A stretch of DNA of 64,000 nt. It comes from Thiobacillus denitrificans DSM 12475 (GTDB taxonomy: Bacteria > Pseudomonadota > Gammaproteobacteria > Burkholderiales > Thiobacillaceae). Below the pieces are notes generated by a model, which saw nothing but the letters and a program-made list of their open reading frames with translations, was not told the DNA's origin and did not search any database. The stretch spans positions 27,322-91,321 of the forward strand of contig NZ_AQWL01000011.1 of the NCBI RefSeq assembly GCF_000376425.1. Direction: 5' to 3'. The translations under genes were made by a program, and so were the position numbers. Below are positions 36,326 through 60,703 of the stretch, piece by piece. Each line of letters starts with the position of its first letter. Position 1 is the first letter of the stretch.

Positions 36326-37201
36326 CTATGCGGGGTGCAGGGTCTCGATGGGACTGACCACCTCGCGCAGGATGTCGGTGGCGACCTGAGCATACAGTGC
36401 GGTGGTCTCGAGCTTCTTGTGTCCGAGCAGAACCTGGATCACCCGGATATCCACCTTGGCTTCCAGCAGGTGGGTGGCGAAGCTGTGACGCAGCGTATGC
36501 ATGGAGACGCGCTTGTCGATGCCCGCTGCGTCTGCTGCGGCATGGATGGCCCGGTTGAGCTGACGGGTGCTGAGCGGGTCGATCGGATCGAGGCCCGGAA
36601 ACAGCCAGCCGCCATCGAGCATCCTGCCCTGGGCACGCGCGACCCGCCACCAGCTGCGCAGGCGCTTGAGCAGCACCGGCGAGAGCATAGCGTAGCGATC
36701 CTTGCCACCCTTGCCCTGTTCAATGCGCAGCGTCATGCGCTGGCTGTCGATGTCGCCAATCTTCAGCGCCACCACCTCGCTAGCGCGCAGTCCTGCGCCG
36801 TAGGCGACCGAGAGCGCCGTCTGATGCTTGAGGTTGCCGGCCGCAGCGATCAGGCGCGCCACCTCCTCACGGCTCAATACCACCGGCAGCGTGTGCGGGA
36901 CATGCACCGGCTGCATCTTGGCCGTCAGCTCGGGATGATCGGCGGTAACGTCGAAGAAGAACTTCAGCCCGGTGATGGCCGCATTGAGCGAGACCGGCGA
37001 GATGCCGTGATCGACCAGATACAACTGGTAGTTGCGCAGATCCTCCACGCTGGCGGTGTCGGGCGGCCGGTGCAGATAGCCGGCGAACTGCCGTACGGCG
37101 CGCAGATAGTGGCTCTGTGTCTTGGGGGAGAGCTTGCGCATCCGCATGTCGTCGATCATGCGTTGCCGCAGCGGACTGATGGTTTGAGGGGAAGGTTTCA
37201 T
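36326..37201 (-). CDS. IS91-associated tyrosine recombinase
   Basis: A 291-residue XerC/D-like recombinase. A SAM-like core-binding domain (about 20-100; MRKLSPKTQSHYLRAVRQFAGYL) precedes a catalytic domain with GAGLRASEVVALKIGDID (Arg), HTLRHSFATHLLE (His-X-X-Arg), LLGHKKLETTALYAQV (His and Tyr). The ATG 37201 follows AGGAG. Such recombinases accompany many IS91-type transposases; their contribution to transposition is not well defined. Confidence 0.88.
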   Translation of the reverse strand: MKPSPQTISPLRQRMIDDMRMRKLSPKTQSHYLRAVRQFAGYLHRPPDTASVEDLRNYQLYLVDHGISPVSLNAAITGLKFFFDVTADHPELTAKMQPVHVPHTLPVVLSREEVARLIAAAGNLKHQTALSVAYGAGLRASEVVALKIGDIDSQRMTLRIEQGKGGKDRYAMLSPVLLKRLRSWWRVARAQGRMLDGGWLFPGLDPIDPLSTRQLNRAIHAAADAAGIDKRVSMHTLRHSFATHLLEAKVDIRVIQVLLGHKKLETTALYAQVATDILREVVSPIETLHPA

Positions 37202-37567
37202 GGCTCGGCTCCTGTCGAAGTACGAGGCGGATTGCCTCATTCCTCAACATAGAAACCGGGGCCTTGGTCTCAACTACCTACCGGCCCCGAGTCGGAGCGC
37301 CTACCGCGCGAGCGGTTTAGTCCCCTCGGCCTAAGCGGTCCCTGGGGATCTAAACCCACGACTTCTGCTATGGATTCGTTACCAGCCATTGGACTGCCGG
37401 GGAACGCGAACGGCCGCTTTCTATCTCCGCGTCCGCGTGCTATTGCTCTTCCCAGTGTGTCCATCAAACGTGGGGAAGGTCAATCTGAGAGGTCGGGCGT
37501 TTTGTTTTACGGTGCCCAAAACTATTGCATTTCATTGTCCTGCGGGGTGTCCACAGGACAACGATGC
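37202..37567. other. Stretch of 366 bases without a confident gene between IS91 end and copper cluster
   Basis: It holds the putative subterminal hairpin at 37257-37289. Short plus-strand frames from 37370 onward have no recognisable family. I see no promoter or RNA that I can name. Confidence 0.4.
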
Positions 37568-38215: not shown

Positions 38216-39610
38216 TCATTCCATTAACGTAGGTAATGTGATTTGAAACCGCGTCATTTCGTTGCTGGACGTTACGGAAATTGATCCGCCATGTGCACTC
38301 ACGATGGATTTGACAATTGCAAGGCCTAAGCCTGCGCCATCCCCTTTGCGTTGACGTGATGGGTCAACGCGGTAGAAGCGATCGAACAGTCTTGGAAGAT
38401 GTTGTTCCGGAATTTTCATGCCGGGATTCTCGACGGATAAGGTGGCTTTATCCATGTGGCTTTCCAGAAACACCCGCACGGTTTGACCGGGCGGCGTGTG
38501 CCGTATGGCGTTCGATATGAGGTTGCTGAGCGCACGTCGCAACATTAGCCGGTCGCCGGATACGACAGCTGACCCTGCTTTAGCAAGTGAAACAGCGCGT
38601 TCTTCTGCCCAAGCCTCGAAATAATCGAATAAGTCTTGTGCTTCACTGGCCAGGTTTACCTTTTCCATCCCCGGTTTGATAAGGTGATTGTCGGTCTGGG
38701 CCAGATAGAGCATATCGCTAACCATCTGGGCCATGCGTTCATATTCTTCCAAACTGGAGTACAGAGTTTCCTTGTACTCGTCCTTGTTGCGTGCACTGGA
38801 AAGGGCTACCTGGGTTTGGGTCATCAGATTGGAAATGGGGGTGCGCAACTCGTGTGCGATGTTGGACGAAAAATCGGACAGCCGCCGGAACGAATCATCC
38901 AGCCGGGCCAACATGGCATTAAAAGCAGTCGCAAGAGGCTTAAGTTCGGGAGGCAAGCCTGAAGTCGGTAGGCGGTCCGACAGATGTTCGGCGGACATGC
39001 CACCCACCATGTAAGTGACCTGGCGCAAGGGGGAAAGGCCCCATCGAGTAGCAATCCATCCCAGGCAGGCTGTGGCGAAAGCAGCCAGCGCGATGGCAAT
39101 GGCCAGAACTGATCGGAAGTTGCTTATGAAGCGCTCATGATGCTGGATGTCCTGCGCCACGACCACGGTGTAGGGCTTGTCACTGCCAGTGTTAATTGTC
39201 ATGGCCATGCTCCGGTAGCCTCTCCCGGCCTGCGTCCATTCCTGCAAGGTGCCTGGTGTGCAGCCTGATGATAGGGTTTGGCAGGCTTGCAGCAATGTGC
39301 GCGGGAAATCTGCACCCGGTGTAGCGAACCAGGTATCCCCTGCTGTATCCGTCACTACCACTGCAAGACCCGGGTGACCGACCAGGGCGTCATCAAGTTG
39401 CTGTGGCAGAAGGTCCAGCTTCTGCTGGCTATAGGCATGCTTGAACAAATTCTGAATGAGTTCCAGCTTGCCATTGAGTTCGTGTCGATCTTCTTCCTTG
39501 AAATGGGTCTCCACCACTTGCGTCAGGAAAAATCCCGTCGTCAGCAATACCAGGGAAGCAGCCACCGCGAAAAGCAGGCTGATCCGGGTGGTCAGTGAGA
39601 AAGTTTTCAA
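38216..39610 (-). CDS. copS: Heavy-metal sensor histidine kinase CopS/CusS
   Basis: A 464-residue inner-membrane kinase. Two membrane segments (about 10-30 and 165-187) bracket a periplasmic copper-sensing loop; HAMP (about 190-240), HisKA with [13 protein letters not shown] (His253) and an HATPase with [37 protein letters not shown] follow. It matches the CusS/IrlS heavy-metal branch. The gene starts at TTG 39610, its TTGA overlapping the copR stop, so the pair is translated together. Confidence 0.93.
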
Positions 39611-40299
39611 GTTGCGGTGCCTTCCTGGGTGGACTCCAGCACGTAGCCCATCCCCCGCACGGTGTGGATGAGTTTGATCTCATGATCATTATCGATCTTG
39701 AGCCGCAATCTGCGTACCGCGACATCGATGACATTGGTATCGGAATCGAAATTCATGTCCCAGACCTGGGAGGCGATCAGACTGCGCGGCAGGACTTCGC
39801 CCTGTCGGCGCAGGAATAATTCCAGAAGGGCAAATTCCTTGGCCGTGAGTTCGATCTTGTGGCCCGCACGCATCGCGCGTCGCCGCAGCAGATCCAGTTC
39901 CAGATCGGCAGCCTTGAGCACGGTTGATTCCAGGCTGGCATGTCCCCGGCGAACCAGGCTGCGTACCCGGGCCAGCAGTTCGGCGAAAGCAAAGGGCTTC
40001 ACCAAATAGTCGTCGGCCCCCATCTCCAGGCCCTTGACCCGGTCTTCCACCTGGTCGCGCGCCGTCAGAAACAGCACCGGCATGTCGATTCCGGCCCGGC
40101 GCACGCCTTCCAGAACCTGCCAACCATTAAGCCCCGGCAACATTACATCCAGAATTATCAGGTCGTAGTGGCCTGCCTTCGCGAGTTCCAGTCCCTCCCA
40201 CCCATCACGGGCCAGGTCCGTAACGAAACCGGCCTCGGTGAGGCCTTGCTTCAGGTAATCGCCCGTCTTGGGCTCGTCTTCGACGATCAGGATTTTCAT
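39607..40299 (-). CDS. copR: Copper-responsive response regulator CopR/CusR
   Basis: A 230-residue OmpR-family regulator. The receiver has [10 protein letters not shown], Asp51 in [10 protein letters not shown] and Lys in LVKPFAF. The winged-helix output (about 130-225) shows [25 protein letters not shown] and [18 protein letters not shown], typical of the CusR/CopR/IrlR branch. ATG 40299 starts the receiver directly; longer upstream frames are spurious. It is divergent from copA with a symmetric ATTACA-N4-TGTAAT site in the shared promoter region, which is the likely binding site. Confidence 0.94.
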
Positions 40300-40359
40300 G
40301 GTGGGAGCGTCAGGGTGGATGCAAGCATCCTGCCACAGCTTGCGCTCAGCGTGGTGCGC

Positions 40360-40375
40360 ATTACAGATTTGTAAT
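40360..40375. promoter_or_regulatory. Candidate CopR box 2 (perfect inverted repeat)
   Basis: ATTACA (40360-40365) and TGTAAT (40370-40375) with a 4-base spacer, placed between copR and copA starts. It would allow control of both divergent operons. Confidence 0.75.
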
Positions 40376-40557
40376 CCATTTGTCAGTTTGATGTTGGGTG
40401 CGCGATTGCAAGATACGGGCATTGCTGATGTGGCCAGAGTTCTGCTGGCCAAGAGCGAGACCTCACTTAATAAAACCGGCCTTAAACGCTGACTCGATAG
40501 GCTAGACCTGTCCCTAGCCGAAGCTAAACGTCTTTTCAGATTGGAGTGCAGTCCCAC

Positions 40558-42360
40558 ATGAAACCTTTTTCCTCACATGCTTTGTCGGTTCCGAATTTTC
40601 CGCGTCGTCGATTTGTTCAAGGCCTGGCGGCGGGTGGCGTACTGCTTGGCCTGTCGACGGTCGCCAAACCGGGCTGGGCGAGTGCCGCTGAGCGGGCCGG
40701 CAGCAGCGCACCGGTGCTCACCGGCACCGAGTTCGATCTGGTCGTCGCCGAATCGCCGGTCAATTTCACCGGCAACGCGCGCATGGCCACCACCATCAAT
40801 GGCTCGATACCGGCGCCCACGTTGCGCATGCGGGAGGGCGATACGGTCACGATACGCGTCACCAACAAGTTGCGCGTGCCCACGTCCGTTCACTGGCACG
40901 GCATCATCCTGCCTTACCAGATGGACGGTGTGCCGGGGATCAGTTACAAGGGCATCGCCCCGGGAGAAACCTTCACCTACCGTTTCAAGGTGGGGCAAAG
41001 CGGCACCTATTGGTACCACTCGCATTCCGGCTTTCAGGAACAGACCGGCATGTACGGCGCCATCGTCATTGAACCGGCAGCTGGCGAGCGGCTCCGCGTT
41101 GACCGTGACTATGTGGTGCAGTTATCCGACTGGACCGACGAAGACCCGATGCGGGTGTTTGCCAAGCTCAAGATGCAGAGCGACTACTACAACTTCAACG
41201 AGCCTACCGCGCCAGATTTCTTCCGTGATGTCTCGCGCAACGGCTTCAGGGCTGCACTCGACAACCGCAAGATGTGGAACGAAATGCGCATGAGCCCCAC
41301 CGATCTGGCGGACATTTCGGCCTACACCTACACTTATCTCATGAACGGCAACGCACCGGACGGTAACTGGACCGGACTGTTCCGGCCGGGTGAGCGCGTG
41401 CGCTTGCGCTTTGTCAGCAGCGGCACCCAGAGCTTTTTCGATGTGCGCATCCCGGGCTTGAAAATGTCGGTGGTGCAAACCGACGGACAGGATGTCGAGC
41501 CGGTGACGGTGGACGAATTCCGCTGCGGACCGGGTGAAACCTATGACGTGATCGTGGAACCCAGGGACGACGCCTACACGATTTTTGCCCAGTCCATGGA
41601 TCGCACCGGATACGCCCGCGGCACGCTGGCCGTGCGCGAAGGAATCTCCGCACCCGTGCCGGTACTCGACAAGGTTGAGTGGCTGAGCATGGCTGACATG
41701 ATGGGTGCGATGGGGGGCGGCATGGGTGACATGGGTGGCATGAACCACGGCGGCATGGCCATGGACCACAGCCAGCACGCCATGCCAGGCATGAATATGG
41801 ACGGCGGCATGGGTGGCGGCGGCCTGAGCAAGGCGAGCAGCCAGGTACGCCATGCAAAAACCGAATATGGTCCCAGCACCGACATGCGGGTGGATATGCC
41901 ACGCATGAATCTGGATGACCCCGGCATCGGCCTGCGCAACAACGGCCGGCGTGTCCTGACGCTGGCCGATCTGCACACCATCGGCGGTCCACTCGATGCC
42001 CGTGGCGCAGAGCGTGAAATCGAATTGCACCTGACCGGCAACATGGAGCGCTATACCTGGTCGCTCGACGGCCTTGAATTCGGGAAATCTACGCCCGTGC
42101 ATTTCCGCCAGGGTGAGCGGCTGCGCGTCATTCTTCATAACGACACCATGATGACCCACCCCATGCACCTGCATGGCATGTGGAGCGAACTGGAAAACCC
42201 GGACGGCGGTTTCCAGGCACGCCGCCACACCATCCCCGTGCAGCCCGCGCAACGGATCAGTTTCCTCGTCAATGCCGATGCGCCCGGACGCTGGGCCTGG
42301 CATTGCCACCTGCTCTATCACATGGATGCGGGCATGTTCCGCGAAGTGGTGGTGGCGTAA
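40558..42360 (+). CDS. copA: CopA-type periplasmic multicopper oxidase
   Basis: A 600-residue copper oxidase that detoxifies Cu(I) in the periplasm. A Tat signal ([12 protein letters not shown]) precedes three cupredoxin domains. Copper ligands are in [25 protein letters not shown] and [16 protein letters not shown] Met/His-rich insert (about residues 385-425) with repeated MGGM and MDHS motifs fits a copper-binding loop. The start at ATG 40558 places GGAG 12 bases upstream and puts the twin arginines correctly. Confidence 0.95.
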
Positions 42361-42390
42361 GCGATGCAGATGAATCAGAGGAAATCAAAA

Positions 42391-43404
42391 ATGAAACCAC
42401 GTATGAATTTGCTGGCCGTGTCGCTCGCCGCATTGATTGTTTCGCCGGCATGGGCGCAAACCGAAGCCATGGATCATGGCGCGATGCCCGGGATGAACGT
42501 CGACTCCATGGGCCAGGATGCAATGCCCGGCATGGACCACAGCAAGATGAACCACGCTGCCATGCCGGACGCCACCACCGCACAACCTGGCATGAACTCC
42601 GACATGTCGGGATCGATGGATGGCATGCAGGGCATGGATCATGGCGAGATGAACATGCAGGGTGGTCCGGCTCCGGCGGATGCGCGTGATCCCCATGCCT
42701 ATTCGGGTGGATACACGCTCGAATCGGGTCCCTATTCACGCCCCGGACCACGAGAACTGCGCCTGGCCGACGAACACAATTTCGGTGGGTTGCTGATCGA
42801 CCGACTCGAGTGGACTCATGCCAACGGGGGCGGCAACGCCTCGGCTTATGAAATGCAGGGCTGGTTCGGCCGCGATTACGACCGACTGGTTGTCAAGGCC
42901 GAAGGCGATGTGGCCAAGGGAAAACTGGAGGAGGCGCGAACCGAATTGCTGTGGGGACATGCCATTGCCACGTTCTGGGACACCCAGCTGGGCGTGCGCT
43001 ACGACAGCGGCGCCGGGCCTGATCGCAGCTGGCTGGCGTTAGGGGTTCAAGGCCTCGCACCGTACTGGTTCGAGGTCGATGCGGCCGCCTATGTGGGCGA
43101 CGCGGGGCGAACTGCGCTGAGGCTGGGGGCGGAATACGAATTGCTGATCACGCAAAAGCTGATTTTGCAGCCACGCATTGAGCTCAATGCGTACGGTAAA
43201 AGCGATGCGGCGCGAGGTATCGGATCCGGGCTGTCGGAAGCGCAGGCAGGCTTGCGTCTGCGTTATGAGTTCACGCGCCAGTTTGCCCCGTATATCGGCA
43301 TCGAGCGGGCCAGCAAGTTGGGCCAGACGGCCGATCTGGCTCGGACAGATGGCGAGAAGACTGGCGAGACACGCTGGGTTGCCGGCGTGCGTTTCTGGTT
43401 CTGA
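42391..43404 (+). CDS. copB: CopB copper-resistance outer-membrane protein
   Basis: A 337-residue outer-membrane protein of the CopB family. Signal peptide (LLAVSLAALIVSPAWAQ), then a Met/His/Asp-rich segment (about 20-95) with several MDHG/MPGM motifs, then a beta-barrel domain (about 110-337) ending in the Phe of VAGVRFWF, the outer-membrane insertion signal. It acts with CopA to sequester copper. AGAGGA sits before ATG 42391; two earlier ATGs lack a site. A hairpin terminator follows. Confidence 0.94.
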   Translation: MKPRMNLLAVSLAALIVSPAWAQTEAMDHGAMPGMNVDSMGQDAMPGMDHSKMNHAAMPDATTAQPGMNSDMSGSMDGMQGMDHGEMNMQGGPAPADARDPHAYSGGYTLESGPYSRPGPRELRLADEHNFGGLLIDRLEWTHANGGGNASAYEMQGWFGRDYDRLVVKAEGDVAKGKLEEARTELLWGHAIATFWDTQLGVRYDSGAGPDRSWLALGVQGLAPYWFEVDAAAYVGDAGRTALRLGAEYELLITQKLILQPRIELNAYGKSDAARGIGSGLSEAQAGLRLRYEFTRQFAPYIGIERASKLGQTADLARTDGEKTGETRWVAGVRFWF

Positions 43405-43540: not shown

Positions 43541-44176
43541 ATGAAACATTTTTTGATGGGGGTTCTGACCACGTTGGTCATTGGCGTAGGGGTTGGCGTA
43601 GTAGCCGTTTATTCCGGCATGGTCAACGTGTCGGCGGACACCCCGCACAGTCCACTGGTCTTTCGCCTGATCGAGACAGCACGCGAACACGCCATCGACC
43701 GTAATACGCGAGATCTGACGGCGCCAGCCAACTTGTCTGACGCAGAACGGGTGCGCCGAGGGGCGGGCAATTACGCCGCCATGTGTGTGGGGTGCCATCT
43801 CGCACCCGGCAAGACGGACTCGGAAATTCGAATGGGCTTGTATCCGCAACCCCCTGACCTGGCCCAACCGGATGAAGTGGCAGTCGATGAGGCCGCGCGT
43901 CAATTTTGGGTCATCAAGCACGGCATCAAGGCCTCAGGCATGCCCGCCTGGTCCAAGGGTGGAATCGAGGATGAGGCCATCTGGGACCTGGTGGCCTTTC
44001 TGCAGCAGATGCCCGCACTTTCGCCCGCACAGTACCTCGAACTGGTCGAGGCCAGTGAAGGCCATTCGCATGGTGGCATTGCGGGTCATGGGGACATGCG
44101 TGGCAAGGAAGGCGAAGGTGAGCCGTCCACAGTCAAGCCAGGCGGTCATGATAATTCTGATGGCCACACTCACTGA
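43541..44176 (+). CDS. Membrane-anchored c-type cytochrome
   Basis: A 211-residue monoheme cytochrome. One N-terminal membrane segment (about 5-25) likely remains as an anchor. The heme motif is CVGCH (about residue 82-86), with an axial Met probably in ASGMPAWSK. The C-terminal 35 residues are His/Gly/Glu-rich (HSHGGIAGHGDM, DGHTH), suggesting metal binding. Homologous proteins are common in copper clusters. It stands between the copB terminator and the DUF411 operon. Confidence 0.85.
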   Translation: MKHFLMGVLTTLVIGVGVGVVAVYSGMVNVSADTPHSPLVFRLIETAREHAIDRNTRDLTAPANLSDAERVRRGAGNYAAMCVGCHLAPGKTDSEIRMGLYPQPPDLAQPDEVAVDEAARQFWVIKHGIKASGMPAWSKGGIEDEAIWDLVAFLQQMPALSPAQYLELVEASEGHSHGGIAGHGDMRGKEGEGEPSTVKPGGHDNSDGHTH

Positions 44177-44359: not shown

Positions 44360-44803
44360 GTGAAAATTGCCATCCTGAGAGCCCTGCTTGTCGCCGTTGT
44401 TTCCCCGGCCGTATGGGCCGCGCCCGATACGCCAGTCGTTGATGTCTACAAAAGCCCGACTTGCGGCTGCTGCAGTAAATGGGTCGACCACCTCAAGGCC
44501 AATGGATTCACGGTTAGAAGCCATAACACCAACGATGTGGTGGCACATAAATCCCGCCTGGGTGTTCCATTCGGCTATGGCTCTTGTCATACCGCACAAG
44601 TCGGCAGTTATCTGGTCGAAGGCCATGTCCCTGCCAAAGAAATCAAACGTCTGCTCAAGGAAAAGTCCAGTGCCCGTGGCCTGGCAGTGCCGGGCATGGT
44701 GGCAGGATCGCCCGGCATGGAAACAGACGAGCGCAAGGATGCTTATGACGTTTTTCTCGTGAACAAGGATGGGTCCACAAAGACCTACGCCCATTATTTA
44801 TAA
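44360..44803 (+). CDS. DUF411 copper-associated protein (CopG-like)
   Basis: A 147-residue exported protein. Signal peptide (LRALLVAVVSPAVWAAP), then a thioredoxin-like start KSPTCGCCSKWVDHLKANGF, where the CGCC motif is the metal/redox site, and a second Cys/His pair GSCHTAQVGSYLVEGHVPA that is diagnostic for DUF411. Members occur in copper and silver resistance loci; their function is not settled. It lies behind CopR box 3 and is followed 9 bases later by the CusF-like gene. Confidence 0.88.
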   Translation: MKIAILRALLVAVVSPAVWAAPDTPVVDVYKSPTCGCCSKWVDHLKANGFTVRSHNTNDVVAHKSRLGVPFGYGSCHTAQVGSYLVEGHVPAKEIKRLLKEKSSARGLAVPGMVAGSPGMETDERKDAYDVFLVNKDGSTKTYAHYL

Positions 44804-44812
44804 GGAATGAAT

Positions 44813-45187
44813 ATGAAACCGATGTTAACCACTTTCGCACTTGGCATGAGCCTGACATTTGGTATGCCGGCTTGGGCTGAGACTCAGCCTATGGACCATA
44901 GTCACGGTGGAGCAGCAAACCATACCGCCATGCCCGCCATGCCCGCCATGTCCGGTATGAACGCCACGTTCAGCGAAGGGCTGGTAAAAAAGGTGGACAA
45001 GGATCAGGGCAAGATCACGCTCAAACATGGCCCGTTGGAAAACTTGGGTATGCCGGGCATGACCATGGTGTTTCGTGTGCAGGACGCCGGCATGCTTGAT
45101 CAGGTTAAGCCGGGTGACAAGGTTCGTTTTCTTGCTGATCGGGCTAATGGCTCGTTGATTGTGACCAAGCTCGAAACCGGGCTCTAA
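44813..45187 (+). CDS. CusF-like periplasmic copper-binding protein
   Basis: A 124-residue protein: signal peptide (FALGMSLTFGMPAWAE), a short His/Met-rich linker (HSHGG, AMPAMPAMSGM), then a CusF/OB-fold domain. The domain has LKHGPLENLGMPGMTMVFRV, where His and two Met match the CusF copper ligands, but the Trp that caps copper in E. coli CusF is replaced by Leu-Gly. It probably chaperones Cu(I). ATG 44813 is preferred because AAGGA is 6 bases before it. No CusCBA pump is in the window. Confidence 0.85.
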   Translation: MKPMLTTFALGMSLTFGMPAWAETQPMDHSHGGAANHTAMPAMPAMSGMNATFSEGLVKKVDKDQGKITLKHGPLENLGMPGMTMVFRVQDAGMLDQVKPGDKVRFLADRANGSLIVTKLETGL

Positions 45188-45217
45188 GCCGAGTTTTCCT
45201 GACACAGGAGGATGACG

Positions 45218-45673
45218 ATGAAACCTGTCTTGAACGTATTGCTGGCACTCACCATGGTCGTGTCAACTGCCGCACTGGCCGGACAGACAGGCCGGCTGCC
45301 CATGCCCCCGAACTTCACCGGGCAGGAGGCGCCAGAGGTGATATTGCGTGCCTATCCGCTTGGTGACGTCACGAAACAGGCTGCATTCAGCCACCACGGC
45401 AAAGCGGTCCGCACCTTGACGTTGCCCAACGGCAAGGAAGGTTGGGTGTACGAGGGAGGAGGCAAACAAGCCCAAACCTATCAGTCCCCCACCAAGGGAA
45501 AACAGACGGTATACGAAACGGGTCCGGGAAATGGTGTGCGTACTTTCACCCTGGTGTTCGATGACAAAGGTGTGGTCATCGATGTGCTTTACAACGAGCA
45601 AGGTCGACACGATGGCCTCACAGCATTGCAAACGCAGCGCAAGGACCGCGGTGAGGGTGCGGATAAGCATTGA
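45218..45673 (+). CDS. Secreted protein of unknown function in the copper cluster
   Basis: A 151-residue protein with signal peptide (VLLALTMVVSTAALAGQ). The mature part has ILRAYPLGDVTKQAAFSHHGKAVRTL and YETGPGNGVRTFTLVFDDKGVVIDVLYNEQG, the second resembling strand patterns of small SmpA/OmlA-like folds, a weak similarity. There are no cysteines. AGGAGG before ATG 45218 sets the start. It follows the CusF-like gene by 30 bases. Confidence 0.6.
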   Translation: MKPVLNVLLALTMVVSTAALAGQTGRLPMPPNFTGQEAPEVILRAYPLGDVTKQAAFSHHGKAVRTLTLPNGKEGWVYEGGGKQAQTYQSPTKGKQTVYETGPGNGVRTFTLVFDDKGVVIDVLYNEQGRHDGLTALQTQRKDRGEGADKH

Positions 45674-45826
45674 CATGGCTGCGGGATAAGCGCGCCGAAC
45701 ACGGCGGTCAGCACGTTTCTGTGGGGCTGACCAAGTGGGTTGGGTGGCGATGCGCACTGATACGCATCTACAGCATTACGAAGATTTCCTGTTGTTGAGT
45801 TTTGTTGAAAAAAATGAGGTGTTCAT

Positions 45827-46054
45827 ATGAACGTCAAGATCATTGCAACCAAAGGTTGTAGTCATTGCACGGGGTTGCAGCATGAACTCAAAGATATGGG
45901 GATTCCATTCGAGGTGTTGCTTGTTGAGGAACATCCCGACGTAATCAAGCGGCATGACATACGTCACTCGCCGAATATCCTGGTGAATGATGAAGTTGTT
46001 TTTCGAGGACAGCCTACCCCGCTTGAATTGCGGGAATTTTTCAGCATGAGCTGA
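45827..46054 (+). CDS. Glutaredoxin-like small thiol protein
   Basis: A 75-residue cytosolic protein with the thioredoxin fold start VKIIATKGCSHCTGLQHELKDMGI, redox motif CSHC, a cis-Pro candidate in RHSPNILVND and a C-terminal helix. The length is that of a minimal glutaredoxin or NrdH-type protein. No signal peptide, so it would act in the cytosol. The stop is 27 bases before the porin start. Confidence 0.8.
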   Translation: MNVKIIATKGCSHCTGLQHELKDMGIPFEVLLVEEHPDVIKRHDIRHSPNILVNDEVVFRGQPTPLELREFFSMS

Positions 46055-46081
46055 ATGAAAACCGACAAAGGAACCGTTGCC

Positions 46082-47302
46082 ATGAAATACAGGATAAGCA
46101 GTTCCCGTCATTGTCTTGTCATGGTCATGTTGAGTCTGGCCGCAGCCAGTAGCAATGTCTACGCAGAGAGCGACTATCAGGCTTTGCAAAACGAAGTGCA
46201 GGCGCTCAGACAGGAGTTGTCCGAATTGCGCGCCTTGGTGAAGCAGCAAAGTGCCTCACAGGAAGACGTGAAAAGTCTGAGGCAGGAAGTGAAGGCAACG
46301 TCCCGGGCACAATCTGAGGCAACCAACGCTGATTCGGTGGCGCATATTGCCGGTTATGCAGCCGTAGGGTTAACCGACCGCAGCCAGAGCGGCGGCAGCG
46401 CGTTCAGTGTTGCAAGCTTCAATCCCATTTTCCACTTTCTGTACAAGGACATTGCCCTGGCAGAGGCAGAACTTGAGATTGCGGCAGCGCCTGACGGGAC
46501 AACCGAAACCAAGCTTGAATACGCATCCATCGACATTTTCCTGAATGACAACACCACGCTTGTTGCGGGCAAGATTTTGAGTCCCCTTGGCTACTTCAGA
46601 CAAAACCTGCACCCGGCCTGGGTCAACAAATTCCCTTCCATCACTCCCGGGTTCGGCGAGGGCCAGGCTGCGCCCTCGAGTGAGGTTGGCCTGGGGGTGC
46701 GTGGTGGATACCCATTGGGCGAGGGCAAGAAGCTGAAGTACGCGCTCTATGTGGGCAATGGACCTGAGCTGGAGGTTGACGGAAGTGAAATTCATGGCAT
46801 TGAAAGCGATGGCTACACGCGTGACGTTGATCACCGCAAGGTGGTTGGCGGACGCATAGGGCTTGTTCCGTTGCCCAGGCTTGAATTGGGTATTTCTGCC
46901 GCTGACGGAGGTGTGGGTCTGGAAGGTGAGCCGGACCGCAGTTACCGGGTTTTGGGTACGGATGTCGGCTACCAGTGGAAGCAACTTGATCTGCGTGCGG
47001 AATACATCAGCCAGCGAGTCGGTGATCTGGCAACCAGCGTGGCGCCGGATGGCGGTACGTGGAAGGCGTGGTACGGCCAGGCGTCCTACAAATTTCTTCC
47101 AACGAAATGGGAAGGGGTACTGCGCTACGGCAAGTACATTTCGCCGCACGCTGATCAGCGACAGGAGCAATGGGCCGTTGGCGTGAACTACCTGTGGGGC
47201 CCCAGCGTGATGGCAAAGCTCGGCTATGAATTCAATCAAGGCCTTGCGGGTGAGAACACCGATGCCAACCGTTGGTTGTTGCAGTTCGCTTACGGTTTTT
47301 GA
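46082..47302 (+). CDS. Outer-membrane porin-like protein with N-terminal coiled coil
   Basis: A 406-residue protein. Signal peptide (VMVMLSLAAASSNVYAE), a coiled coil (about 25-75; LQNEVQALRQELSELRALVKQ) that probably forms a trimeric or periplasmic stalk, and a beta-barrel (about 90-406) of alternating amphipathic strands ending in LLQFAYGF with a terminal Phe. This design resembles phosphate-selective-porin-like or DcaP-like proteins. ATG 46082 follows AAAGGAACC; a start 27 bases earlier would spoil the signal peptide. It precedes three cytochrome genes. Confidence 0.75.
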   Translation: MKYRISSSRHCLVMVMLSLAAASSNVYAESDYQALQNEVQALRQELSELRALVKQQSASQEDVKSLRQEVKATSRAQSEATNADSVAHIAGYAAVGLTDRSQSGGSAFSVASFNPIFHFLYKDIALAEAELEIAAAPDGTTETKLEYASIDIFLNDNTTLVAGKILSPLGYFRQNLHPAWVNKFPSITPGFGEGQAAPSSEVGLGVRGGYPLGEGKKLKYALYVGNGPELEVDGSEIHGIESDGYTRDVDHRKVVGGRIGLVPLPRLELGISAADGGVGLEGEPDRSYRVLGTDVGYQWKQLDLRAEYISQRVGDLATSVAPDGGTWKAWYGQASYKFLPTKWEGVLRYGKYISPHADQRQEQWAVGVNYLWGPSVMAKLGYEFNQGLAGENTDANRWLLQFAYGF

Positions 47303-47314
47303 GGAGGAATGGCC

Positions 47315-47611
47315 ATGTTGAATAACTCATTCCACTGGGCAGCTTCGCTCGTCTCGGCTGTGCTTCTATCGATGGCGATGGCAGGCGTCTCCCATGCAGA
47401 ACCCTCGGCTTCAGTCCAGGACGACCCGGGGCACTTTGCGCGCGGCGCCCAGGCGTGGGCAAACAACTGTGCAAGTTGCCATAACTTGCGACCCGCAAAA
47501 GATCTCCGCGATGACCAGTGGCGTGTTGTAGTGGCCCACATGCGGGTACGGGCTGACCTGACCGGCCAGGAAGCGCGCGACGTGCTCAAGTTCCTTCAGG
47601 AGAGCAACTGA
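47315..47611 (+). CDS. Small monoheme cytochrome c (1 of 3)
   Basis: A 98-residue exported protein (signal SLVSAVLLSMAMAGVSHAE) with heme motif CASCH in ANNCASCHNLRPAKDL and axial Met candidate in VVAHMRVRADL. AGGAGG is 7 bases before ATG 47315, which is preferred over ATG 47309. The TGA overlaps the next ATG by one base, so translation is coupled. Confidence 0.88.
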   Translation: MLNNSFHWAASLVSAVLLSMAMAGVSHAEPSASVQDDPGHFARGAQAWANNCASCHNLRPAKDLRDDQWRVVVAHMRVRADLTGQEARDVLKFLQESN

Positions 47612-47958
47612 TGCGCGGTGCACGTTTAACCATGCTGTCTGCGATGGGCCTAGCGTATGCCAGCCTTTCGATTGCGGCGGGCGACCCCGGACGCGGCGCA
47701 ATGGTCTTCAATGGTACGTGCATTGCCTGTCACGGCAGCGATGGCTTCGGCAGTCTCCCCGGCGTTCCGGATCTGACCGGGCGAACGGGATTGCTGTCAC
47801 AAGACGACGCTGTCTTGCTCAAGCGGATGACAGAAGGATTTCAGTCGCCCGGCTCCCCAATGGCCATGCCGCCAAGGGGTGGCGATCCCGCATTGACTGA
47901 CGCAGATTTGAAAGCTGTTCTGAGGTACATGCGCAAGGAATTCAAAAATGCGCCCTAA
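47611..47958 (+). CDS. Small monoheme cytochrome c (2 of 3)
   Basis: A 115-residue exported cytochrome with heme motif CIACH (GTCIACHGSDGFGSLPG) and axial Met in SPMAMPPRGGDPALTD. The fold pattern is that of class I cytochromes, c553/c5-like. CAGGAGAG before the start is the ribosome site. Very short signal (MRGARLTMLSAMGLAYASLSIAAG). Confidence 0.9.
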   Translation: MRGARLTMLSAMGLAYASLSIAAGDPGRGAMVFNGTCIACHGSDGFGSLPGVPDLTGRTGLLSQDDAVLLKRMTEGFQSPGSPMAMPPRGGDPALTDADLKAVLRYMRKEFKNAP

Positions 47959-47989
47959 AGCCACGAATTCACAGAAGGAGAGAAACCCA

Positions 47990-48397
47990 ATGCATCGCGC
48001 CAAGGTGTTTGTTCTGAGCAATTGTTCACACCGGTATTGGCTGCTGGTTCCGTTGCTCATCCTGGCCAGCCTGACGGTTCACGCGGCAGGCTTTCCCCAG
48101 CCGAGCCCTGGTTTGATGCCGAACCCGGCAAAAGGAAAAGTTCTTTATAGCCAGAACTGTGCATCGTGTCATGGCGCCGACCTGAAAGGCAGCGACAAGG
48201 GCCCGCCATTCCTGCACCGGATATATGAGCCCTCTCATCATGCGGATCTGGCTTTCCAACTGGCGGTGAAAAATGGGTCGCGTGCACACCATTGGCAATT
48301 CGGGGATATGAAACCTGTCCCTGGCCTGAGCCCGAACGATGTCGCGCATGTGACTGCCTATGTCCGGTCTGAGCAGCACAAGGTCGGCATTAATTAA
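47990..48397 (+). CDS. Small monoheme cytochrome c (3 of 3)
   Basis: A 135-residue exported cytochrome, signal LLVPLLILASLTVHAAG, heme motif CASCH (YSQNCASCHGADLKG) and an axial Met candidate in FGDMKPVPGLSPNDV. A long insert with several His (PSHHADLAF, RAHHWQFGDM) distinguishes it from the two preceding cytochromes. AAGGAGAG precedes ATG 47990; the frame is open upstream through the previous gene but unrelated. Confidence 0.9.
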   Translation: MHRAKVFVLSNCSHRYWLLVPLLILASLTVHAAGFPQPSPGLMPNPAKGKVLYSQNCASCHGADLKGSDKGPPFLHRIYEPSHHADLAFQLAVKNGSRAHHWQFGDMKPVPGLSPNDVAHVTAYVRSEQHKVGIN

Positions 48398-48423
48398 GCC
48401 GATTTCTTAAGGAGAGAACCAAA

Positions 48424-49410
48424 ATGCGTCACATTAATCAGTTCGTGTTGGGAATGGTCTGGCTAGGCAGCGGAACACTTGCAGCCGCTGCGCCGACAGC
48501 ATATATCCCCCTGGGGTCTGGCAACGCCGTGATTGCCGTGGATACGGCGACCGGAAAGATCACGAAACGCTACCCCGGGGTGGACAATCCGCACGGCCTG
48601 GTTGCGACACCGGATGGCGAATACCTGATCGCAGGGAGTCTCAAGGAAACCCCTGTTCCAGAAGGTGCCCCTGCGGACACCCCCAACAGCAAGTTGTATG
48701 TCATTCATCCCGAACATGGTCACGTGATGGCGGAAATTCCGGTTTCCGGATGGACCCATCATGAAGCCATTACCCCGGATGGGAAATTTGTGATTTCCAC
48801 GCATCCGACCCGGGGCGGCATCAGTGTTGTCGACTTTGTCGCCAACAAGGTGTTCAAAACCATCAAAACCGGACCGGCACCCAATTACACGGTGATTACG
48901 AAAGACGGGAAGCGTGCTTACGTGAGCAATAGTGGCAACGGCACCCTCAGCGAAATCGATCTCACCAAGTGGGAAGTGACCCGTTCACTTGAGGCCGGGC
49001 CCTCGCCCGAGCATCTGGTTTTTTCTCCGGATGAAAAAATCCTATACGTGGCGAATGACCGGGCTGGAACGGTTTCCGTCGTGCCCATCAAGGAAGGCAA
49101 AGTCGAAACGACCTACAAAATTGGCAAACGTCTGCACGGACTAGACATCGGCGACGATGGAAAAACACTTTTCGTCAGCAGTCGTTCAGACGACAAGCTG
49201 GTAGCGCTGGACACCACAACCGGATCGCAGCGCACGTTGACGCTATCCCCCGAGCCTTATCACCTCGACAGGATTCCCGGTACCGGGAAAGTGTATGTCT
49301 CAAGCAGCAAGTCCCCAATCATCTGGATCATCGATCAGAAGACTTTTACCGTCACCGGCACGATTCAACTCCCTGCAGGAGAAGGTCATCAGACCGCAGT
49401 GGTTCCATAA
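48424..49410 (+). CDS. Secreted YVTN-type beta-propeller protein
   Basis: A 328-residue exported protein with signal VLGMVWLGSGTLAAAAP and about seven blades of the YVTN/lactonase-like type. Blade signatures are AVDTATGKITKRYPGVDNPHG, TKDGKRAYVSNSGNGTLSEID and SPDEKILYVANDRAGTVSVV. Several His (WTHHEAITPDG, HPTRGG, YHLDRIPG) line up as in NirF or cytochrome-linked propellers that handle heme or metal. It lies 26 bases after the third cytochrome and is probably the last gene of that unit. Confidence 0.82.
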   Translation: MRHINQFVLGMVWLGSGTLAAAAPTAYIPLGSGNAVIAVDTATGKITKRYPGVDNPHGLVATPDGEYLIAGSLKETPVPEGAPADTPNSKLYVIHPEHGHVMAEIPVSGWTHHEAITPDGKFVISTHPTRGGISVVDFVANKVFKTIKTGPAPNYTVITKDGKRAYVSNSGNGTLSEIDLTKWEVTRSLEAGPSPEHLVFSPDEKILYVANDRAGTVSVVPIKEGKVETTYKIGKRLHGLDIGDDGKTLFVSSRSDDKLVALDTTTGSQRTLTLSPEPYHLDRIPGTGKVYVSSSKSPIIWIIDQKTFTVTGTIQLPAGEGHQTAVVP

Positions 49411-52903: not shown

Positions 52904-53009
52904 AATGTGCATCCTGGTCTCCGTTGGTAGCTGCTGATTCTGACGCTGATAGGGTATCCGCTGACAAGGTTTAATCCGCCCCTGATTAATGCGTCATGGA
53001 GGAATCAAG

Positions 53010-55475
53010 ATGAACCACACAAGACATATGAATGAGAACCACGGCATGCCGGACGATAAGCCGCAAGCCGTACACGACCCGGTTTGCGGCATGACCGTCG
53101 AGCCGGATGCGAGCACGGCACACGCCGAACACGCAGGTATGCAATATTATTTTTGCTCTCAAGGCTGCTGCGACAAGTTTGTTGCCGAGCCCACCCGCTA
53201 CGCGGGCGTCCAAACAGGCGAGCCTCAGCCGGCGGTAGTTAAAGACAACAAAACGATTTACACCTGCCCGATGCATCCCGAGGTGAAACAGCCAGGCCCA
53301 GGTGCCTGCCCCAAATGCGGCATGGCGCTGGAGCCGATGGGGGTTCCCGCAGCCGCCTCGAAAACCGAATACACCTGCCCCATGCATCCGGAAGTGGTGC
53401 AGGATCATCCCGGTAATTGCCCCAAGTGCGGCATGACGCTGGAGCCACGCACCGTAGCGGTGGAAGAGGACGATGCCGAACTGCACGACATGACCCGGCG
53501 CTTCTGGTTCAGCACCGTGCTCGCCATCCCTGTTTTGATCAGCGCCATGGGATCGGAGTTCTGGCCGGATCTGTTTGCCGAATTCATCAGCCCGCGCAAC
53601 CGCCAGTGGCTGGAAATGCTGCTTGCAACGCCAGTAGTGTTATGGGGCGGCTGGCCTTTCTTCGTGCGTGGTTGGCGGTCTCTGCTCACATGGAACCTCA
53701 ACATGTTCACGCTCATCGGTCTGGGGGTGTCGGTGGCCTGGGGCTACAGCATGGTCGCCGCATTCATGCCGGGAATATTCCCGCCTGCGGTATTCAACGA
53801 GATGGGGGTGGTGCCGGTTTACTTCGAAGCTGCAGCGGTGATCACTGCCCTGGTATTGCTGGGCCAGGTGCTGGAGTTGGGCGCCCGCAGCCAGACCAAC
53901 ACCGCCATCAAGTTGTTGCTGGGGCTGGCGCCCAAGACGGCACGCATTGTTCGTGACGACGGCCGCGAGGAAGATATCCCGCTCGATCAGGTTCAGCCCG
54001 GCGACACATTGCGGATTCGTCCTGGCGAAAAAATCCCGGTGGATGGCACTGTCATTGAAGGCTTGAGCCATGTGGATGAGTCCATGGTCACCGGCGAACC
54101 GGTTCCGGTAAAAAAAGACGCTGACGCAAAAGTCATCGGCGCGACGGTGAACGGTACCGGCAGCCTGTTGATGAAAGCCGAGAAGGTGGGTAGCGAAACC
54201 CTGCTGGCGCAGATCGTTCATATGGTGGCGGAAGCGCAGCGCTCCCGCGCACCGATCCAGAAACTGGCGGATGTCGTCTCCGGTTATTTCGTCCCGGTGG
54301 TGGTTATCGTCGCGCTGATTACATTTGGCGTGTGGGGTCTGTGGGGACCGGAGCCACGTTTGGCCCATGCAGTGATCAATGCCGTTGCCGTGCTCATCAT
54401 CGCGTGCCCCTGCGCGCTGGGGCTGGCCACGCCGATTTCCATCATGGTGGGTACCGGGCGCGGTGCCATGATGGGGGTGCTGTTCAAGAATGCCGAAGCG
54501 CTGGAAGTGATGCGCAAGGTGGATACGCTGGTGGTGGACAAAACCGGCACCCTCACCGAAGGCCATCCTGAACTGGTGAGCGTCACTCCGGCAACGGGTT
54601 TCGATGAAGCAGAGATCGTGCGTCTGGCCGCCAGTCTTGAACGCTCCAGCGAACATCCGCTGGCTGCTGCCATCGTGCGTGGTGCGGAGAAACGCGGTGT
54701 GGAATTGGAGTCGGCAGAGGACTTCCAGTCAGTCACCGGTAAAGGCGTGACAGGTGTGGTGGCGGGGCGCCAGATTGCGCTGGGCAATATCAAACTGCTT
54801 CAGGATCAGGGCATCGACGTCGGCGACCTGCCGGCGCAAGCCGATGCGCTGCGCGCAGAAGGACAGACCGTGATGCTGCTAGGCGTCGATGGCCGTGCCG
54901 CAGGACTCATTGGCGTGGCCGACCCGATCAAATCGACCACGGAAGAAGCGATCCGCCTGCTGCACGAAGAAGGCATCGAGATCGTCATGCTCACGGGTGA
55001 CAGCCGCAAGACAGCCGAGGCCGTCGCAGCAAAACTGGGCATTGACCGGGTTCAGGCCGAGGTGCTGCCCGACCAGAAAGCAGCGGTGATCAAACAACTC
55101 CAGTCTGAGGGCCGCATCGTCGCCATGGCTGGAGATGGCATCAATGATGCCCCGGCCTTGGCCCAAGCACAGGTTGGCATCGCCATGGGCACCGGCACCG
55201 ACGTGGCGATGGAAAGCGCAGGGGTAACCCTGGTCAAGGGCGACCTGCGCGGCATCGTGCGCGCTCGCAAGCTCTCGCGCGCCACCATGAGCAACATCCG
55301 GCAGAACCTGTTTTTTGCATTTATCTATAACGCACTGGGTGTGCCGGTGGCCGCCGGGGTCTTGTATCCCTTCTTCGGCCTGCTGCTTTCACCCATGATC
55401 GCGGCGGCGGCCATGAGCTTCAGCTCGGTGTCGGTGATCACCAATGCCCTGAGGCTGCGGCGTGTTGGGCTGTAA
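53010..55475 (+). CDS. copA: Copper-exporting P1B-type ATPase with YHS and two CPMHPE domains
   Basis: An 821-residue copper pump. The usual CXXC HMA domains are absent. Instead the N-terminus has a YHS domain (DPVCGM at 23-28, [10 protein letters not shown]) and two YTCPMHPE heavy-metal-binding domains (about 77-105 and 118-146). The membrane Cys-Pro-Cys is C466-P467-C468; the phosphorylated Asp is D510 in DKTGT; TGES-like is TGEP; HP is [10 protein letters not shown]; hinge is [10 protein letters not shown]. It moves Cu(I) out of the cytosol. GGAGGAA before ATG 53010 sets the start. The same name copA is used for the oxidase at 40.6 kb, which is a different protein. Confidence 0.95.
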
Positions 55476-58724: not shown

Positions 58725-59552
58725 ATGCAACTCAGTTCCCGTTTCGCCAACGCTACGCCCTTCTTACGCGCCGACCATCCGTTATCGGATGATCAGATTC
58801 GCAGCGTGGCCCCTTCCATCTTCGCGGAGGAAAAGCACCAGAGCCGATCCGACCGCTATACCTATATCCCGACCGGCGAGGTATTGGGTGCCCTGCGCAA
58901 GGAAGGCTTCCAGCCATTCATGGTATGCCAGACGCGTGTGCGCGATAGCGGCAAGCGCGAACACACCAAGCACATGCTGCGATTGCGCCACGCAGCGCAG
59001 ATCAACGACGCAGAGGCCAACGAAATCATTTTGCTGAACTCGCACGACGGCACCAGCAGCTATCAGATGCTGGCGGGAATGTTCCGTTTCGTTTGCAGCA
59101 ATGGGCTGGTGTGCGGCGACACCGTGGCCGACCTGCGCATCCCGCACAAGGGCGATGTGATCGGCCAGGTGATCGAAGGCGCCTACGATGTGCTGGACGG
59201 GTTCGATCTGGTGCGGGAACGTCGGGAAGATATGGCCGCCATCACGCTCAAGCATGGCGAATCAGAGGCATTTGCTCGCGCCGCGCTGTCGCTGAAATAC
59301 GATGACCCAATCAAGCCTGCGCCCATCACGGAAACACAACTGCTGCGGCCTCGACGCCGGGATGACGACCGGCCCGACCTGTGGAGCACGTTCAACCTCG
59401 TGCAGGAGAATCTGGTGCAGGGTGGACTGACCGCACGCACGGCCAATGGACGCAGGAACCGCACCCGCGCCATCCAGGGCATAGACCAGAACGTCAAGGT
59501 CAACCGGGCGCTGTGGATACTGGCCGAAGAGATGAAGCGGCTCAAGAACTGA
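58725..59552 (+). CDS. DUF932 plasmid/phage-related protein
   Basis: A 275-residue protein of the DUF932 (DUF945-type) family of plasmids and integrative elements. Typical stretches are RYTYIPTGEVLGALRKEGF, MLRLRHAAQIN, ANEIILLNSHDGTSSYQMLAGMFRFVCSNGLV in parts. The family's role is unknown; homologues sit in ICE and plasmid backbones, often near RadC. CAGGAGA is placed 7 bases before the ATG. A GC-rich hairpin follows. Confidence 0.9.
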   Translation: MQLSSRFANATPFLRADHPLSDDQIRSVAPSIFAEEKHQSRSDRYTYIPTGEVLGALRKEGFQPFMVCQTRVRDSGKREHTKHMLRLRHAAQINDAEANEIILLNSHDGTSSYQMLAGMFRFVCSNGLVCGDTVADLRIPHKGDVIGQVIEGAYDVLDGFDLVRERREDMAAITLKHGESEAFARAALSLKYDDPIKPAPITETQLLRPRRRDDDRPDLWSTFNLVQENLVQGGLTARTANGRRNRTRAIQGIDQNVKVNRALWILAEEMKRLKN

Positions 59553-59747: not shown

Positions 59748-60397
59748 GCGGGCAGCCCGTCAAGTTGCCCGCAGGGACTATTTTTGGCGCGTCGCGCGCG
59801 GCAAGTGTGCCGCGCGCGTTTTAACAGCCAACGACCTATCCTTCCTCCAATGCGAGCCCAGCCGAAGGCTGGGCGGCGAGTATGACAAACTTTGCTGCGC
59901 CGGTTGTGCAGTAGCACGCTGCCCCCAATGCTGGCGGACAGGTCGCCATGAACGATGGCAGCTCACGACAGGCCGTCCACCCTGCCCTTCCGCAGCCACG
60001 CTACGAACGATCAAACCTGCGTCAATGCACAAGGGGGCGTTCATCCCGGGTGATTCGGACTGACCCTGACTGCGATGGGGTGCGTACCGGAGACGCTTCT
60101 GTGCGGAGATGCAAGAGCCATGATGCCTTTCGGATGGAGTCGCACCCAACGGCGGCCTTGGCTTGTCGTGAATCCTGGCGAGGCAGCGGCTACGCCTCGG
60201 GCTTCATGGCTGCAACCGTCCGGCCCAACAAATTTCCCCGGCACTACGTGCCTTCCTCGCGAAACAAATTTCTTGTTCCTCCCGGTCCTCCACGCTGTTG
60301 CGGCCGCTGCGCGATGCAGCCCGCCCGACCCTCACCCATCGGATCACCGACAAGGCCGCGATGGGCGCGACCTTGCACCACCAAAAGGAGATTCATA
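59748..60397 (+). other. Leader of about 650 bases before the DUF736 gene
   Basis: No gene is supported. AAAAGGAG at 60383-60390 is the ribosome site of the next gene. The stretch resembles the leaders at 57284 and 58182 in GC richness. Confidence 0.45.
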
Positions 60398-60703
60398 ATG
60401 GCAAACATTGGCACCTTCACCGCACAGAACGACAGCTTCATCGGCACGGTTCGTACCCTGACGCTCAACGTCAAGGTCAAATTCGTCCCGAACACCGGGG
60501 AGAGCGAGAACGCTCCCAACTACCGCATCGTCGCCGGCAACTTCGAGATCGGCGCGGCGTGGAAGAAAGTCAGCAAGGCGGAACGGCCTTACCTGTCGGC
60601 AACCCTGGATGATCCGTCGTTCCCGGCGACCATCTACGCCCGTCTGGTCGAGGGCGAGGATGGCGTGCACAACCTGATCTGGTCGCGCAGCAAGGGCGAT
60701 TGA
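60398..60703 (+). CDS. DUF736 small protein
   Basis: A 101-residue protein of the DUF736 family, starting MANIGTFTAQNDSFIGTVRTL and ending with DDPSFPATIYARLVEGEDG and WSRSKGD, all family landmarks. DUF736 genes are part of plasmid and ICE backbones in proteobacteria; function unknown. AAAAGGAG gives a firm start. A terminator follows. Confidence 0.93.
   Translation: MANIGTFTAQNDSFIGTVRTLTLNVKVKFVPNTGESENAPNYRIVAGNFEIGAAWKKVSKAERPYLSATLDDPSFPATIYARLVEGEDGVHNLIWSRSKGD

Follow-up and report, generated by a model that had tools for sequence, protein, structure and literature searches.

A run of six genes in Thiobacillus denitrificans DSM 12475, encoding a glutaredoxin-like protein, a porin, three c-type cytochromes and an exported propeller, belongs to a recurring, copper-linked set. 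Tentatively, and with something short of even confidence, we favor the reading that the propeller binds copper and trades electrons with c-type cytochromes as part of the handling of periplasmic copper, where it might oxidize Cu(I). The run lies within a stretch of 64,000 nucleotides, which we call the window; positions are counted from its first letter.

All six genes are located head to tail on the forward strand, which confirms the earlier note's claim of such a set in a copper island. The glutaredoxin-like gene (45827..46054) comes first, followed by the outer-membrane porin (46082..47302, in an open reading frame at 46055-47302) and by three exported monoheme cytochromes, cyt1 (47309..47611, motif CASCH), cyt2 (47611..47958, CIACH) and cyt3 (47990..48397, CASCH, in an open reading frame at 47948-48397); the propeller (48424..49410) closes the run. 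Down the run the gaps are 0 bases (27 if the porin begins at the later site), 6 bases, a 1-base overlap, 31 bases and 26 bases. For the porin, the start at 46082 is better than that at 46055, as AAAGGA can be seen by eye to precede it. The true start of cyt3 is probably 47990, which we prefer because in a homologue (L032) the stretch separating the two possible starts is interrupted by a stop. In Pfam, cyt1 and cyt3 match Cytochrom_C (25.1 bits against a cut-off of 21.3, and 46.6 bits, respectively) and cyt2 matches Cytochrome_CBB3 (40.7 bits); cyt3 also has five extra histidines that are invariant in an alignment of 9 rows, in the pattern GPPxxHxxYxxxHHxD...HHWxxGxM. A promoter and terminator scan of the run, the yield of which was no better than that of shuffled sequence, placed one terminator-like site where the glutaredoxin gene ends and none on the forward strand between the porin and the propeller. 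The ten gaps that we scanned hold inverted repeats, one of which, at 45749-45768 ahead of the glutaredoxin gene, has arms of 6 bases; a shared regulatory box was rejected, there being no 15-mer common to any of these gaps.

The copper setting of the run is evident in the window itself. On the reverse strand are a CusS-like sensor kinase (38216..39610; CusS sensor domain PF21085, 104.1 bits) and a response regulator (39607..40557; Response_reg and Trans_reg_C). The forward strand carries open reading frames that we named by eye as a CopA/PcoA-like multicopper oxidase (40546..42360) and a CopB-like outer-membrane protein (42364..43404), then a further exported cytochrome c with the motif CVGCH (43541..44176; Cytochrome_CBB3, 49.5 bits), a DUF411 protein (44360..44803; PF04214, 87.7 bits) and a CusF-like copper-binding protein (44807..45187; PF11604, 95.5 bits). 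Beyond the run, on the same strand, lies a copper P-type ATPase with a YHS-like N-terminus (52989..55475), also named by eye.

The propeller was found again at 24 genome loci and in 23 plasmid records, and is spread on islands and plasmids over the Alpha-, Beta- and Gammaproteobacteria. Its carriers include Ruegeria pomeroyi DSS-3 (SPO_RS21680), a strain in common laboratory use, and one Gallionellales bacterium, and plasmids bearing copper genes in Ruegeria, Hoeflea, Roseibium, Halomonas and others. Copper genes lie near the propeller at 21 of the 24 genome loci and near the porin at 15 of 19, compared with none of 20 control stretches, which were drawn from five genomes only; as the window's own proteins served as probes, distant copper genes go unnoticed equally at the tested loci and in the control stretches. 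Of the 24 propeller loci, 18 have a match to the window's P-type ATPase nearby, 11 a match to its multicopper oxidase and 8 a match to its CopB-like protein. These counts bear out the notion of a recurring unit linked to copper. Since sub-blocks of the gene order recur in other genera and the 20 control stretches have no copper neighbors, the gene set is not due to chance. The order of all six genes was seen in close relatives only.

The unit is modular as well: a pair of porin and di-heme cytochrome and a pair of propeller and cytochrome also occur separately. The porin is carried by 20 of 185 genomes of the class, our own included. It is adjacent to cyt1 in 18 of the 19 other porin genomes, a pairing known from other genera, and at seven loci cyt1 is fused to cyt2 as a di-heme protein. 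The propeller has c-type cytochromes as neighbors at 16 of 24 loci (the 400 control placements for this count all fall within the same 20 control stretches), and at many homologous loci cyt2 lies directly 5' of it. The glutaredoxin-like gene turns up near the propeller or a CopA ATPase at other loci.

The propeller is a protein of 328 residues, for which AlphaFold gives a confident seven-bladed model (AF2 pLDDT 93.9, pTM 0.88). It matches Pfam Lactonase (PF10282) at 51.3 bits against a gathering score of 21.7, an assignment to a fold family rather than to a function. The earlier note had remarked on its several histidines, and across about 60 homologues eight of them prove invariant: H57, H112, H113, H127, H197, H238, H280 and H322. 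Seven of the eight occupy one equivalent position in six blades, with one blade supplying two consecutive histidines. This spacing over the blades is the pattern of the copper-cluster site of N2O reductase, in the order of the lactonase-type NosZ. The histidines would meet in the central channel, and the propeller looks built to hold copper. The motif HPxHGHxM was ruled out as a general copper site, as divergent members lack it. In a phylogenetic tree the propeller family forms one clade (100/99). We use the tree for this family unity only, because the placement of the lactonase-type NosZ (L-NosZ) as a sister branch is weak (91/73, with a long branch) and because 13 of the 34 rows used as controls, which group on a separate branch, seem to be opposite-strand or chance reading frames.

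The fold of the propeller matches both NosZ and thiocyanate dehydrogenase, and these two enzymes must be considered in turn. There is a close likeness to L-NosZ, the clade III N2O reductase (NF052460): both are propellers with histidines in the order H, HH, xY, H, H, H, H (a by-eye comparison with L035; the automatic alignment put just 5 of the 7 on it), all 26 aligned members of our family match the L-NosZ model, with E-values up to 1e-5, and the two may be sister branches. However, our propeller scores 69.5 bits against a family cut-off of 700, and its partners are cytochromes and copper genes. Clades I and II differ in several ways: by sequence order, their consecutive HH falls one histidine-bearing blade later, nothing conserved in the propeller can be seen by eye to correspond to their lysine near CuZ, and the scores for TIGR04244/04246 are 12.6 and 16.5 bits against 625. 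Unlike N2O reductases of any clade, the propeller has no C-terminal CuA cupredoxin domain, the protein ending at its last blade. Of 21 carrier genomes, our own among them, 9 have NosD (TIGR04247) and 12 do not; five of the 21 were taken from the search for the porin. Given the missing CuA domain and the 12 carriers without NosD, as well as the family score, we conclude that the propeller is not an N2O reductase, and that it probably has no canonical CuZ.

With thiocyanate dehydrogenase the propeller shares seven blades, a copper site in the channel (a predicted one in ours), a cytochrome c partner and adjoining copper genes, a comparison at the level of fold, partner and setting. The chains of that enzyme are longer (464-471 residues) and Tat-exported, whereas ours shows no twin arginine (RR) among its 35 N-terminal residues. 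It could be that the propeller is a copper enzyme related to thiocyanate dehydrogenase or NosZ, acting on a small molecule (a sulfur, nitrogen or cyanide species) and placed in islands by its need for copper. We judge this unlikely: its conserved neighbors are copper genes, it also sits on the copper-gene plasmids of Ruegeria, Hoeflea and the other carriers listed above, and no thiocyanate, cyanate or sulfur-oxidation enzyme is named among the listed annotations of nine plasmid stretches.

A propeller with a ring of histidines might also bind copper and hand it on without any redox step, as a periplasmic chaperone or sponge resembling the zinc metallochaperone propeller AztD. The set of several histidines and the CusF-like protein and pumps in the setting would suit such a role, and 10 of the 26 members weakly match the AztD model. 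Yet the score of our propeller against that model is 24.4 bits versus a cut-off of 400, the setting is one of copper and cytochromes, and the strong linkage to c-type cytochromes, together with the cytochrome maturation genes that accompany the propeller on two plasmids, favors redox work. We consider the chaperone reading quite unlikely.

It is less probable still that the genes are cargo of one copper island, travelling together without a joint function. The run does sit on a low-GC stretch adjoining integrase genes, and its modules do come apart: the propeller is absent from 8 of 19 porin genomes, and of the 15 genomes that were selected solely for the propeller, no more than 2 (G389 and G394) carry the porin. 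(The rate of 7 porin carriers in 20 propeller genomes is an unfair one, as five of the 20 were chosen as porin carriers.) Against this, the porin and propeller occur together in 11 of 184 genomes of the class, compared with about 1.8 expected. The Fisher test takes no account of phylogeny and omits the genome of the window itself, and the two scans are taken to cover the same 185 genomes from their equal counts and shared genome labels. They co-occur even where they lie far apart in the genome (G472); moreover, the genes overlap or are separated by short gaps, and cyt1 and cyt2 can be fused.

The earlier note had also proposed a periplasmic electron path to or from the outer membrane. The porin has weak, below-cut-off Pfam matches to Porin_4 and Porin_O_P, and a homologue (L071) clears the Porin_O_P cut-off. 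Its AF2 model, with five sequences, is of low confidence (pLDDT 53.9, pTM 0.56) and consists of helices followed by 15-17 strands; because the model is poor, its fold matches, which include DcaP, OprO/P and ordinary solute porins, serve as hints only. Like DcaP and OprO/P, the porin has an N-terminal coiled coil and then a barrel; unlike them, it is a stable neighbor of a di-heme type cytochrome, often in copper islands. The Mtr/Pio conduits consist of a large barrel with a multiheme cytochrome, MtrB being larger than the porin here, and in Cyc2, a fused cytochrome-porin, the CXXCH lies inside the porin polypeptide. Our porin reading frame, of about 400 residues, has no CXXCH, and the cytochromes of the run carry one apiece, with no multiheme cytochrome among them. 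Since the frame lacks CXXCH, is of this length and has 15-17 strands in the low-confidence model, the protein is more probably a small pore for solutes than a heme conduit of the MtrB type, and a conduit for electrons that reaches or crosses the outer membrane is not supported. An Mtr- or Cyc2-like conduit that would serve copper or iron outside the cell and have the propeller at its periplasmic end was therefore dropped as the leading idea and now seems very improbable, despite the porin-cyt1 adjacency, the cyt1-cyt2 fusions and the propeller of the Gallionellales bacterium. The suggestion that the genes make a heme-linked cofactor likewise found no support.

We return to the propeller as a possible redox partner of the cytochromes. 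On this reading the exported propeller would bind several copper ions in the periplasm through its histidine ring, at one end of the central channel, much as copper is held by histidines in the CuZ of N2O reductase and in thiocyanate dehydrogenase, whose channel site holds three coppers. Having no CuA domain, it would exchange electrons with cyt3 and with the cyt1/cyt2 pair, which in many bacteria is one di-heme protein. Given its place in copper-resistance islands, its likeliest task would be the redox handling of periplasmic copper: it may take these electrons from Cu(I) and pass them to the cytochromes, so that periplasmic copper would be oxidized through the respiratory chain, and not solely by an O2-using multicopper oxidase. 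The porin would offer solutes a path through the outer membrane. The glutaredoxin-like protein would be an accessory; it has 75 residues, the motif GCSHC and a thioredoxin/glutaredoxin fold, looks cytosolic, and matches PF13192 (Thioredoxin_3; 38.5 bits against 24.8) and PF00462 (Glutaredoxin; 24.6 against 22.9). The multicopper oxidases CueO and PcoA/CopA, which have a cupredoxin fold and use O2, serve to make periplasmic Cu(I) less toxic. The proposed job is thus alike, the means (a propeller with cytochromes) are different, and the window encodes such an oxidase as well. A bolder version holds that, after N2O reductase and thiocyanate dehydrogenase, the propeller is a third kind of copper enzyme with this fold, compact, exported and CuA-less, with a copper cluster in its eight-histidine site, acting as a Cu(I):cytochrome c oxidoreductase with porin and di-heme partners and so linking the detoxification of copper to respiration; we regard this as doubtful.

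The earlier note's view that the system is undescribed is consistent with the open-licence literature: among the matches listed, no description of the unit was found in the portions seen, including those of PMC11573801, PMC9456337, PMC5328954, PMC6504805 and PMC13122619. The portion seen of a survey of copper proteins in Betaproteobacteria (PMC6769254) contains no propeller-, porin-, YncE-, YVTN- or lactonase- words except the nos_propeller domain. If our reading is true, copper resistance in many bacteria has an uncharacterized redox branch tied to c-type cytochromes, which might allow Cu(I) to be oxidized when oxygen is scarce. The propeller would then be akin in its design to N2O reductase, as a small protein that does not depend on NosD, and would be useful for asking how propeller copper sites are assembled and how CuZ-like sites evolved.

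The six genes named in the earlier note are all present on the forward strand: a glutaredoxin-like gene (45827-46054), a porin (46082-47302), three cytochromes, denoted cyt1 (47309-47611), cyt2 (47611-47958) and cyt3 (47990-48397), and an exported, seven-bladed propeller with eight invariant histidines (48424-49410). They are separated by gaps of 0 to 31 bases, with one overlap of 1 base. According to Pfam, the first product has a thioredoxin/glutaredoxin fold, cyt1, cyt2 and cyt3 are c-type cytochromes, and the propeller is of the lactonase/YVTN type. The start of cyt3 is probably 47990 rather than 47948, because a stop separates the two candidate starts in the homologous locus L032. Besides CXXCH, the relatives of cyt3 share the histidines of GPPxxHxxYxxxHHxD...HHWxxGxM in all nine alignment rows.

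The run sits inside a copper island with a CusS-like kinase and a regulator, DUF411 and CusF-like proteins (Pfam), and neighboring ORFs named by eye as multicopper oxidase, CopB and copper ATPase. GC content falls from about 0.64 over the window's first 30 kb to 0.52-0.60 at 38 to 58 kb. Two integrase genes (33224-34519, forward; 36326-37240, reverse) lie shortly before the island, and beyond it lie DUF932 and DUF736 genes (58725-59552 and 59948-60703), which are typical of plasmids or integrative elements. A 153-residue exported-looking protein (45212-45673), without a Pfam or NCBIfam match at E up to 0.1, is conserved and adjoins the glutaredoxin gene in related copper islands.

Relatives of the propeller occur at 24 loci in one scan of genome contigs, at 50-91% identity, and in 23 plasmid records, by name nearly all from Alphaproteobacteria. 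With evenly drawn samples and a limit of E 1e-40, the propeller is found, counting the window's own genome, in 13/101 genomes of the family, 18/185 of the class and 4/299 of the phylum; its distribution is patchy, not universal. One locus holds a second, diverged copy (L019:10136-11122, reverse), 54% identical to the window's. Two other propellers, at L131 and L133, with four histidines each at the channel columns, are possibly other metal propellers.

A tblastn search (E up to 1e-4) with copper proteins of the window, namely ATPase, oxidase, CopB, CusF and DUF411, finds a match at 21 of the 24 propeller loci (all except L017, L030 and L033) and at 15 of 19 porin loci (all except L071, L079, L081 and L083), compared with none of 20 control stretches, 17 kb each, from five genomes. 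At E up to 1e-20, the corresponding counts are 18/24, 12/19 and 0/20. Annotations were compared on nine plasmid stretches from the 23 records: eight include a P-type ATPase for copper or heavy metals or a copper-binding protein, and the Martelella stretch includes neither. An exported CXXCH ORF lies on the same strand within 2 kb of the propeller at 16/24 loci, versus 0/400 placements in control stretches. On two plasmids, genes for cytochrome c maturation are close to the propeller (CcmF, DsbE, CcmH-type and CcmI at L166:6001-11350; CcmF, DsbE and CcmH-type at L165:5935-12981), perhaps as a copper-tolerant spare set.

The earlier note had treated the gene order as that of one unit. Sub-blocks of it recur elsewhere; the full six-gene order was seen only in close relatives (L011, which looks like one contig with L045/L088, and L032, cut at the porin). 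The order porin-cyt1-cyt2-propeller is found in L016, L018, L024 and L026, the porin frame being broken in the last. The porin is present in 20/185 class genomes, and cyt1 adjoins it in 18 of the 19 others besides our own; the remaining locus, L084, stops at the porin. In seven loci (L024, L066, L071, L072, L074, L076 and L080) cyt1 and cyt2 are fused into one di-haem protein of about 200 residues (239 as called in L066), which suggests that they form one functional unit. At L071:7716-9593, L072, L074, L076 and L080 the porin and the fused cytochrome stand with no propeller nearby, a conserved pair that deserves separate study. Eleven of the 19 other porin genomes have the propeller, five on the porin's own stretch and others elsewhere (e.g. 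G472). Excluding our own genome, the class sample contains 11 genomes with both genes, 8 with the porin only, 6 with the propeller only and 159 with neither (Fisher p 5e-9, ignoring phylogeny). Of 15 genomes chosen solely as propeller carriers, 12 belong to the window's family; only two of the 15 have the porin.

The possibility that the propeller is an N2O reductase is rejected: unlike that enzyme it has no CuA domain, it scores far below the family cut-offs of NosZ and of the lactonase-type (clade III) L-NosZ, and NosD is absent in 12 of 21 carrier genomes. For seven of these 12, the listed completeness is 98% or more and the listed contamination 3% or less. For the same reasons, a canonical CuZ site built by NosDFY is unlikely in the propeller. 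The window's genome does have, outside the window, a nosZ-like gene with a 657-residue frame (in the region G000:C3:59905-64840) and a nosD gene. By analogy with thiocyanate dehydrogenase, direct loading of the propeller's putative copper site is likelier than assembly by NosDFY. According to published accounts of that enzyme, a His-rich cytochrome c can accept electrons from a propeller copper site, and genes of this kind are found together with copper genes (PMC9456337, PMC5328954, PMC6504805).

The earlier note's reading, a periplasmic electron path to or from the outer membrane, was right in kind as regards copper and electrons, but a conduit through the outer membrane is unsupported. The porin probably serves as an ordinary pore for solutes. 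The window's porin has weak porin matches in Pfam, one homologue scores above the Porin_O_P cut-off, and the structure model is of poor quality.

As to substrate, the propeller family accompanies copper genes even on plasmids of such bacteria as Ruegeria and Roseibium, and we therefore favor, with modest confidence, a role in which copper itself is handled by redox chemistry, rather than one that acts on a sulfur or nitrogen compound. Under such handling of copper, electrons would pass from Cu(I) to the propeller's cytochromes, a direction we prefer, again with modest confidence, to the reverse. We regard the protein as a propeller whose multi-copper site is probable and whose genetic setting is new.
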